IMG/VR virus record: IMGVR_UViG_3300027659_000091
Location: 1-37,413 of that record
Strand: one strand, 5' to 3'
Source of the DNA: a virus
Length of the DNA: 37,413 nucleotides
This document shows, in pieces, positions 14,596 through 16,249 of this stretch. Made by a program: the position numbers and the translations under genes. The notes under the pieces are model-generated. The model made no database searches and was not told the DNA's origin. It saw only the letters and a program-made list of their open reading frames with translations. Every line of letters begins with the position of its first letter. The first letter of the stretch is position 1.

Positions 14596-14626
14596 GAATT
14601 TTTAAAGAACGTTTGCTTTATCAGCA
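14596..14626 (-). promoter_or_regulatory. boxB-boxA antitermination signal, tRNA operon 1
   Basis: Minus strand: hairpin TGCT-GATAA-AGCA (14614-14626) followed by CGTTCTTTAAAAATTC (14596-14611), which matches the boxA of bacterial rRNA leaders. It lies about 10-35 nt after the promoter start site. Confidence 0.65.
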
Positions 14627-14636
14627 GTAGATAGAG

Positions 14637-14665
14637 ATTATACACCATCTACGATTTATTGTACA
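14637..14665 (-). promoter_or_regulatory. Promoter P8 of tRNA operon 1
   Basis: TGTACA (14660-14665) and TATAAT (14637-14642) are 17 bp apart, with the same spacer core ATAAATCGTAGATGGTG as P10. Confidence 0.8.
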
Positions 14666-14674
14666 CCGTTATTT

Positions 14675-14866
14675 TTAAACTCTTTCAACGGTTCCTAAAA
14701 CACCACGCGTACCGCGCGTGTATTTAGACACAGTTTGAGCCCATACAGTGTACCTAGATTTGTCAAGAGGAAAAGTCTCTTGACCTTTCTTTGGTCCACG
14801 ATAAGCGCACTGAGTAAACTTAACGCCATCAATAACGATTACAGTGTCTTTAGATTTCCTAGCCAT
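14675..14866 (-). CDS. Small basic hypothetical protein (63 aa)
   Basis: MARKSKDTVIVIDGVKFTQC then YRGPKKGQETFPLDKSRYTV and a Thr/Arg-rich end. The start at 14866 has AAGGA upstream. Predicted beta-rich and basic. It has its own promoter P9 between the two tRNA operons. No family recognised. Confidence 0.7.
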   Translation of the reverse strand: MARKSKDTVIVIDGVKFTQCAYRGPKKGQETFPLDKSRYTVWAQTVSKYTRGTRGVLGTVERV

Positions 14867-14896
14867 TTAAGTTCCTTTGTTTGACTTGATATAGCT

Positions 14897-14925
14897 ATTC
14901 TATCAAATTGACGATTTATTGTACA
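14897..14925 (-). promoter_or_regulatory. Promoter P9 (TGTACA-17-TAGAAT)
   Basis: TGTACA (14920-14925) and TAGAAT (14897-14902), 17 bp apart on the minus strand. Preceded by the complete upstream hairpin AGTTGACT-GTTTT-AGTCAACT and ATTAAATAACGG. Reads into 14675-14866. Confidence 0.78.
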
Positions 14926-14974
14926 CCGTTATTTAATAGTTGACTAAAACAGTCAACTTAAACCTTTAGTATTC

Positions 14975-15055
14975 AAAATGCATCAGGTGATCTTGAAGGG
15001 CATCGAGCTAGGGTAATCCCTATCGAGCCATCGAACGTTCATTCTGGTGCATTTT
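14975..15055 (-). ncRNA. Structured RNA F (81 nt)
   Basis: A 12-nt inverted repeat (AAAATGCATCAG at 14975 and CTGGTGCATTTT at 15044) closes an interior with the hairpin TAGGG-ATTA-CCCTA and repeated TCGA motifs. Minus-strand pairing has one A-C mismatch. It follows tRNA-Cys in operon 2. No ORF in 14943-15107. Confidence 0.5.
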
Positions 15056-15107
15056 GTACACATAAGTTGTTGATTTATAAGGGCTAAAAATAGCTCTTTT
15101 ATCACTT

Positions 15108-15185
15108 TGGAGCAACGGGTGAGATTTGAACTCACGGTTTTACGGATTTGCAATCCATTGCGTTGGGCCTCTCCGCCACCGTTGC
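15108..15185 (-). tRNA. tRNA-Cys (GCA)
   Basis: Acceptor GCAACGG / CCGTTGC, discriminator T as in bacterial Cys, anticodon loop TTGCAAA in stem ATGGA / TCCGT, T-loop TTCAAAT, encoded CCA. Confidence 0.94.
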
Positions 15186-15186
15186 A

Positions 15187-15744
15187 TTAATTCCATACAC
15201 GAGAGTGTTTTGGCACTCCTGACTTTAGGTACTCCATCTGATCAGCCAGAATGTGTCGATTCTGAAGGATCATGTTTTCGTAATGATTAGGTGCGTATGG
15301 AACATATAGAAGTTCAAGCCCGCACTGATGAAGTAACTTGGCTCCTTTATGAGTGTTACACTTTACGCATGCAGTCACTACGTTAGACCATACGTTTTCA
15401 CCACCTTTTGAAACTGGAACAATGTGATCCCGTGACAGGTTGTTGTTGGTAAAGAGCCCACCACAGTAAGCACATATATGCTTGTCGCGCGAGAATAAAG
15501 TTTTATTTGTTAGGATAACACTGCCAGCACGTTCGATTGCAAATCCTTTACCACGTACAGCAATGATCGATGGAGTTTCTATAACGGACATACGTCCATC
15601 ATTCTGAGTTCCTCCACGGAACGTTGCTACTACGTCACCAAGAGTCCACACTACCATATCCTTAGCGAAGTATGATACTGCGTCTTCATAGTTGATCCAC
15701 TTGCGTGGTAGTCCAGATACGTCTAATGCTAATACATGTGACAT
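15187..15744 (-). CDS. HNH endonuclease
   Basis: 185 aa. The HNH core is RDKHICAYCGGLF, then LSRDHIVPVSKGGENVWSN, then CVKCNTHKG: two CxxC zinc pairs framing the DH and N of the metal site. The N-terminal 85 residues are a separate beta-rich domain. The gene lies inside tRNA operon 2 between tRNA-Cys and tRNA-Ile2. T4-like phages carry similar HNH genes, some as homing enzymes. RBS GGAG. Confidence 0.88.
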   Translation of the reverse strand: MSHVLALDVSGLPRKWINYEDAVSYFAKDMVVWTLGDVVATFRGGTQNDGRMSVIETPSIIAVRGKGFAIERAGSVILTNKTLFSRDKHICAYCGGLFTNNNLSRDHIVPVSKGGENVWSNVVTACVKCNTHKGAKLLHQCGLELLYVPYAPNHYENMILQNRHILADQMEYLKSGVPKHSRVWN

Positions 15745-15781
15745 GATTACTCCTTACAACTTTCTTCCTTAATTATATAGG

Positions 15782-15857
15782 TGGTGGGCCCTACGTGACT
15801 CGAACACGTAACCAACGGATTATGAGTCCGCTGCTCTAACCATTGAGCTAAAGGCCC
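15782..15857 (-). tRNA. tRNA-Ile2-like (CAU, lysidine type)
   Basis: Acceptor GGGCCTT / AGGGCCC, anticodon loop CTCATAA in stem GCGGA / TCCGT, encoded CCA. Acceptor, D-arm and anticodon arm resemble E. coli Ile2 rather than elongator Met, so C34 is probably changed to lysidine by TilS to read AUA. Confidence 0.82.
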
Positions 15858-15861
15858 ATTT

Positions 15862-15951
15862 TGGCGGAGTGACTGGGACTCGAACCCAGAAGCCTGCTTT
15901 CGCAAACCGACGGATTAGCAATCCGCTCTAATACCATTATAGGACCACTCC
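15862..15951 (-). tRNA. tRNA-Ser (GCU), class II
   Basis: Acceptor GGAGTGG / TCACTCC, discriminator G, anticodon loop TTGCTAA in stem GCGGA / TCCGT, long variable arm (GTTTGC ... GCAGGC), encoded CCA. Confidence 0.93.
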
Positions 15952-15958
15952 AAAATCT

Positions 15959-16036
15959 TGGTCTGGGTAGCAGGATTCGAACCTGCAGCCTCGAAGTTCC
16001 AAACCTCGCCGTCTACCTGATTGACAATATACCCAG
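15959..16036 (-). tRNA. tRNA-Pro-like (UGG), copy 2
   Basis: Acceptor CTGGGTA / TACCCAG, discriminator A, encoded CCA. The anticodon loop TTTGGAA in stem CGAGG / CTTCG reads UGG, the same as the tRNA at 12168, but the body and D-arm differ. C1-G72 fits Pro. Why two are needed is unclear. Confidence 0.8.
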
Positions 16037-16041
16037 ATGAA

Positions 16042-16125
16042 ACCATATCGAAACACACTTCGGATACTGTACTAAACAGGAACTATCCACCACGGCCAGG
16101 CCGCTGAAATGCATTTCAATATGGC
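16042..16125 (-). ncRNA. CCA-anchored hairpin X3 behind tRNA-Gln
   Basis: Minus strand GCCATATTGAAATGCA pairs fully with TGTGTTTCGATATGGT if four G-U wobbles are allowed; on the plus strand these would be mismatches, so the minus-strand RNA is the functional one. It begins in the GCCA end of tRNA-Gln. Inside: GGATA / TATCC around CTGT-TTAGT-ACAG, and CGGC-CTG-GCCG. Confidence 0.75.
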
Positions 16126-16195
16126 ACCGGAACTAGGGTTCGAACCTAGGACGACAGAGTCAAAGTCTGTTGTGTTACCACTACACTATTCCGGA
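16122..16195 (-). tRNA. tRNA-Gln (UUG)
   Basis: Anticodon loop CTTTGAC in stem ACAGA / TCTGT, T-loop TTCGAAC, discriminator G. The first acceptor pair is U1-U72, unpaired as GlnRS prefers. CCA encoded. First gene of tRNA operon 2. Confidence 0.93.
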
Positions 16196-16212
16196 TCAAT
16201 TATAAAGAATAC

Positions 16213-16249
16213 GAATTTTTAAAGAACGTTGTCAATCTTTTTGATTGAC
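16213..16249 (-). promoter_or_regulatory. boxB-boxA antitermination signal, tRNA operon 2
   Basis: Minus strand: perfect hairpin GTCAATC-AAAAA-GATTGAC (16231-16249), then CGTTCTTTAAAAATTC (16213-16228), identical over 16 nt to the boxA of operon 1. It lies just after the promoter start and just before tRNA-Gln. Confidence 0.7.

Follow-up and report, generated by a model that had tools for sequence, protein, structure and literature searches.

How can a phage transcribe a run of tens of untranslated tRNA genes and not have Rho cut transcription short? The question is raised by a 37.4-kb virus stretch from IMG/VR, analysed here over its whole length (the window), which encodes DNA ligase, ribonucleotide reductase, ThyX, and 26 tRNAs. 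The tRNA genes form two operons on the minus strand, laid out as follows in the direction of transcription.

16300–16329, minus strand: intrinsic terminator, dividing the ligase-side genes upstream from the operon 1 promoter
16259–16287, minus strand: operon 1 promoter, TGTACA-17-TATAAT, kept in relatives
16231–16249, minus strand: boxB-like hairpin of operon 1, GTCAATC-AAAAA-GATTGAC, 7 bp, ending 2 nt before the 16-mer
16213–16228, minus strand: boxA of operon 1, CGTTCTTTAAAAATTC
15108–16195, minus strand: tRNA operon 1, with Gln (first tRNA, 16195), Pro, Ser, Met, an HNH endonuclease ORF (15187–15744), and Cys
14637–14665, minus strand: operon 2 promoter, TGTACA-17-TATAAT
14614–14626, minus strand: weak hairpin of operon 2, TGCT-GATAA-AGCA, 4 bp
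14596–14611, minus strand: boxA of operon 2, CGTTCTTTAAAAATTC
14554–14588, minus strand: small covarying RNA element between boxA and tRNA-Glu, the first structured RNA of operon 2
10560–14399, minus strand: tRNA operon 2, 21 tRNAs from Glu (first tRNA, 14399) to Val

The same succession of terminator and tRNA promoter was seen in L005, L006, L008, and L069. An inverted repeat surrounds the −10 box of the tRNA promoters, both in the window (16274–16251 and 14652–14627, minus strand) and in L099, L008, L111, L053, and L110; its arms vary by phage while their complementarity is kept (GTAGAT/ATCTAC, GTTAG/CTAAC, ATGGAT/ATCCAT, GAAGCT/AGCTTC). A gene for an RNA-binding protein of PHROG 850 (DUF2828/DUF7788; 8629–10056, minus strand) adjoins the tRNA cluster, and a sub-threshold match to the Y RNA-like YrlA lies at 12219–12286 (27 bits against a cut-off of 69).

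The initial annotation had proposed that both tRNA promoters are followed by a hairpin and one identical 16-mer, which was borne out at 14596–14611 and 16213–16228. The 16-mer occurs exactly twice in the window, both times on the minus strand and once after each tRNA promoter. Allowing up to three mismatches added only one site, and shuffled sequences gave 0.8 matches of any quality. Both window sites (GTTCTTTAAAA) agree exactly with the boxA consensus GYTCTTTAANA (Baniulyte et al. 2017, PMC5725501), a consensus derived for gammaproteobacteria.

It had also been claimed that the 16-mer resembles boxA of beta- and gammaproteobacterial rRNA leaders. The exact 16-mer gave at least 118 matches in bacterial genomes, and among the matches listed 16 sat 169–212 nt 5′ of 23S rRNA, 15 of them in Pseudomonas and one in the betaproteobacterium AAP65. 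Several Pseudomonas spacers carry a hairpin, for example TCTGAC-TTTT-GTCAGA, 1 nt before the 16-mer, much like the phage. Among the Burkholderiaceae, to which AAP65 belongs, a near-identical 14-mer (GTTCTTTAAMAATT) was found in 37 of 100 genomes, against 2 for the reversed control, and 29 of the 30 loci read proved to be boxA of rRNA operons (27 in the 16S–23S spacer, 2 in the 16S leader). Within the genus Pseudomonas, 17 of 21 genomes had a match. When bacterial loci from the whole-genome searches were pooled, 59 lay before 23S, 2 before 16S, 6 elsewhere, and none before a tRNA. Thus, the resemblance is letter for letter with the 16S–23S spacer boxA of Pseudomonas and one betaproteobacterium; as a comparison with the host's own rRNA operons it yields exact or near matches in groups that are only candidates for the host. 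A search of Rfam with the leader returned no match. Collectively, the letters and their placement strongly support reading the 16-mer as a genuine boxA of the kind found in rRNA operons, with a putative NusB–S10 binding site.

The promoter itself, labelled a tRNA promoter in the initial annotation, proved not to be specific to tRNAs. The family (GGTGTACAATAAATCGT) recurs at many further sites in the window, mostly before protein genes and never with the 16-mer (2610, 2331, 1947, 14927, 11411, 20124, and others). One such promoter (11411–11381, minus strand) lies within the tRNA array, before a MazG-like ORF (11099–11410), and has no boxA. This correction strengthened the finding, since the mRNA promoters of the same family served as an internal control. 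We extended the control to 80 relatives, which were gathered via the neighbouring ligase gene, the motif playing no part in their selection. Among their 94 same-family promoters, boxA was present at 17 of the 19 that have a tRNA no more than 250 nt downstream and at none of the 75 others (Fisher 8e-17, a value that overstates independence, given the relatedness of the contigs). Counted from the motif, 34 consensus matches were found in 81 loci; 17 lie 10–230 nt before the tRNA that opens a run, where 0.21 were expected, and three more sit near contig ends, where the tRNAs were probably cut off. The tRNA leaders that escaped the strict pattern hold variants at the same spot (GTTCTTTAACAAATT, GTTCTTTAAAAAATT, GTTCTTTAAAAACT, and GATCTTTAAAAATC). 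In near-complete records of 130–174 kb, exact TTCTTTAAMAATT was found at tRNA operon starts only, and a 350-kb phage record has a single exact site, with tRNAs starting about 600 nt downstream; a 78-kb record has one before no tRNA. In seven loci (L103, L106, L452, L457, L466, L481, and L492), boxA and then a tRNA come directly behind an intrinsic terminator, no promoter intervening, so that boxA and promoter function can be told apart. Together with the 75 sister promoters lacking it, these cases ruled out boxA as a part of the promoter.

We then scanned IMG/VR independently of promoters, for boxA followed by a tRNA T-arm, a design to which gaps below about 10 nt are invisible for most tRNAs. 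At least 120 stretches carried the pattern with TTCTTTAAMAATT and 68 with GCTCTTTAANAAT, at least 188 in all, against 1 for the reversed boxA. ARAGORN confirmed a tRNA within 60 nt in 183 of the 190 matches listed, and 104 had no tRNA in the 400 nt upstream. The first tRNA, among these listed matches, was Glu in 85, Gln in 53, Leu in 15, Arg in 9, and Tyr in 7. The contigs listed, which reach 364 kb, fell into 25 DNA clusters (70% identity over 300 bp) or 104 (80% identity over 1 kb). In contrast, none of the 274 bacterial genomes scanned from the class to which AAP65 belongs had the boxA–tRNA pattern. In 13 tRNA-rich named phages (T4, KVP40, phiKZ, PAK_P1, DLP_6, Paride, AB1I1M-1, CHI14, CM1, 65.2, Astolliot, S13, and BUCT-ZZ01), the consensus GYTCTTTAANAAT was absent or elsewhere, never at a tRNA start; in phiW-14, the same search found no tRNA. 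Big tRNA arrays can thus do without boxA. The named phages were rejected as close relatives, their best proteins being only 40–48% identical. Searched as DNA against the phage collection, the leader found weak matches only, the one in Aeromonas phage Asswx_1 lying inside a coding gene, and the leaders of two boxA-bearing contigs matched cultured phages essentially over the tRNA alone. In our sample the boxA–tRNA arrangement is therefore virus-specific, and within the range of these tests it was limited to groups that have no close relatives in culture. Judged by sequence, many large aquatic bacterial viruses appear to begin their tRNA clusters with an rRNA-type boxA.

What would a phage gain from it? 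We consider it probable that these phages recruit the host NusB–S10 antitermination complex to transcribe their long untranslated tRNA arrays. By placing an rRNA-type boxA at the 5′ end of the tRNA transcripts, the phage would offer host NusB–S10 a binding site as soon as boxA leaves the host RNA polymerase. Together with NusA, NusG, and SuhB, bound NusB–S10 would turn the polymerase into a fast, Rho-resistant elongation complex of the rRNA type, able to cross several kilobases of untranslated tRNA genes evenly, to the benefit of the distal tRNAs. Where boxA follows a terminator with no promoter, it would act on polymerases reading through from upstream. The need is plausible in operon 2: over 2.7 kb of its transcribed strand (11940–14637), we found no ATG-started ORF longer than 44 aa, hence no translation to protect the transcript. 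Host factors are the likely partners, since a search of 12 phage records for a NusB homologue came back empty. Identity to the rRNA boxA, placement at tRNA promoters only, conservation, tight spacing, and virus-specific distribution support this proposal. Against it stand the related lineage L009, L010, L011, and L016, which has tRNA arrays and no boxA, the boxA-less named phages, and the composition of the operon 2 transcript (C 20.5%, G 25.6%), which is not C-rich and has more G than C, so that strong Rho loading sites are not evident.

The spacing of boxA suggested an added role. Among the IMG/VR matches listed, the distance from the end of boxA to the tRNA had a median of 13 nt (5–95% range 8–18) and was mostly 12–15 nt. 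In the promoter-based set, whose query held no tRNA and set no spacing limit, no gap was shorter than 12 nt. With the CTTTA of boxA and the tRNA's first base as end points, the distance was 17–20 nt in 67% of 131 unique leaders, near the 18–19 nt that separate boxA from boxC in Enterobacteriaceae (PMC10250234), the comparison being approximate as the boxA and boxC borders of that paper cannot be matched exactly to ours. Accordingly, the same NusB–S10 recruitment might chiefly help the first stable RNAs to fold and be processed: the first structured RNA would have its 5′ strand anchored close to the exit channel while the partner strand is still to emerge, and termination resistance would be secondary. 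Besides the spacing, which the promoter-based leaders reproduce with no tRNA in the query, this reading gains from operon 2, where boxA stands well away from the first tRNA and directly precedes another structured RNA. Yet the benefit would be limited to the first RNA of each operon, compact phage leaders may yield tight spacing for free, which is the simpler cause, and the figures carry both the imprecise borders and the blindness of the IMG/VR scan below about 10 nt. As the main function, we regard it as unlikely.

The structured RNA in question has the form CCTC-TCTAAGTC-stem-GGTnnAATAC-stem-GCATGAGG, about 35–45 nt long, and recurs in L005, L006, L008, L009, L011, L032, L069, L080, L101, L110, and L334. 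Its two helices covary, both sides being changed in 15 cells as compared with 4.8 in shuffles, and an Rfam search found no match; it is a candidate for a new small RNA of phages. L009 and L011 keep the element, which there follows the promoter where others have boxA. Between the element and tRNA-Glu of the window (14400–14550, minus strand) lie two related repeats of about 45 nt, CAAAACGC..GCAGGA..CATTAAATG..ACC..GGTCAGCC.

Antitermination over the tRNA arrays remains our preferred reading. A wider version of it is conceivable, and we offer it only tentatively: a host rRNA boxA fixed 17–20 nt before the first stable RNA may be a general virus-specific strategy by which large phages have the host polymerase treat their tRNA arrays as rRNA operons, the complex acting both as a processivity factor and as a folding chaperone for tRNAs and small structured RNAs.

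The hairpin proved less constant than boxA. The initial annotation had described a boxB at both leaders, and the hairpins are there as described. That of operon 1 exceeds chance for its composition (p ~0.005); that of operon 2 does not, 40–50% of shuffles equalling its 4-bp stem. Across the 131 unique leaders, a stem of at least 6 Watson–Crick pairs no more than 10 nt before boxA was present in 38%, as compared with 4.9% of shuffles. However, there were 36 different stems, GNRA loops made up 16 of 50, and some leaders leave no space for a hairpin (for example TATAATACATCTAACAATCGTTCTTTAACAAATT in L005 and TATAATCACGTCAGTTCTTTAAAAATT in L304). With stems so diverse and many leaders hairpin-less, the hairpin is real yet optional, and free in sequence; the boxB claim is partly supported, clear at operon 1 and weaker at operon 2, with many relatives dispensing with the hairpin. 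The order that had been noted, as in rrn and unlike lambda nut, was confirmed: the hairpin precedes boxA at both sites, as in the boxB-boxA-boxC of rrn (PMC10250234). Of the rRNA signals, boxA is both required for the complex and enough to form it, and boxB has been called puzzling (PMC10250234), which fits the hierarchy of the phage leaders, with boxA constant and the hairpin optional. The enrichment of hairpins and the GNRA loops could instead point to a phage-encoded N-like protein that binds hairpin and boxA in lambda fashion. We find this very improbable, given the 36 stems, the unconserved loops, the many hairpin-less leaders, and a hairpin–boxA order unlike nut; the 12 phage records lacking a NusB homologue also count against it.

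That the leader RNA is a decoy titrating NusB–S10 off the host rRNA operons would explain why a host-type element is copied exactly and set behind seemingly strong promoters, but a phage genome has one or two copies, at tRNA or tRNA-side operons, and no dedicated abundant RNA, so that we give this idea hardly any credence. Equally hard to believe is that an A+T-rich promoter or initially transcribed sequence with a chance likeness to boxA was kept by descent: in most leaders the element does lie within about 15–50 nt of the −10 box, but it is missing from 75 sister promoters, persists while flanks, hairpins, and promoter type vary, occurs after terminators without a promoter, and has the exact letters of the rRNA boxA.

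The boxA element is known; what is new is phage tRNA operons as its carrier, its virus-specific distribution, and a boxA-only form without boxC. In the literature searched (PMC-licensed papers), we found no description of boxA on phage tRNA operons, nor, among papers on boxA more widely, a title or abstract dealing with tRNA genes of phages. A use of the rRNA boxA that is virus-specific, seen in numerous uncultured phages and absent from the sampled bacterial tRNA operons, offers a direct and testable answer to how untranslated tRNA arrays escape Rho. The natural variation of the leaders, with constant boxA, optional hairpin, and no boxC, also puts to the test how important each part of the rRNA signal is, an issue described as puzzling in rRNA studies. 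Besides, boxA may serve as a sequence flag for hosts with the same boxA and for the starts of tRNA operons in viral contigs.

How does the arrangement compare with known systems? In rRNA operons, the antitermination complex (rrnTAC) consists of NusA, NusB, S10, NusG, SuhB, and S4 on the boxA of the leader or of the 16S–23S spacer. Bacterial boxA outside rRNA shares with the phage element its location beyond rRNA operons and the same consensus, but it belongs to bacterial mRNAs and, at suhB, to repression; the survey describing it stated that non-coding RNAs were outside its scope (PMC5725501). Lambdoid nut sites with N share the use of boxA by a phage and, if our proposal is right, the host Nus factors; they differ in that lambda nut has boxA and then boxB with the N protein, whereas the phage hairpin precedes boxA, its stems are unconserved, and the operons served are those of tRNAs. 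From the rRNA leader, the phage leader departs by driving tRNA arrays and no rRNA, by often missing the hairpin, and by having neither boxC (UCUGUGUGGG), which is absent from the 18 nt (CGTATTCTTTATAATTGA) between boxA and tRNA-Gln, nor a leader–trailer helix. It shares with it an identical boxA, the order of hairpin then boxA when a hairpin is present, the placement of boxA after a promoter or before a stable RNA, and a long untranslated operon downstream.
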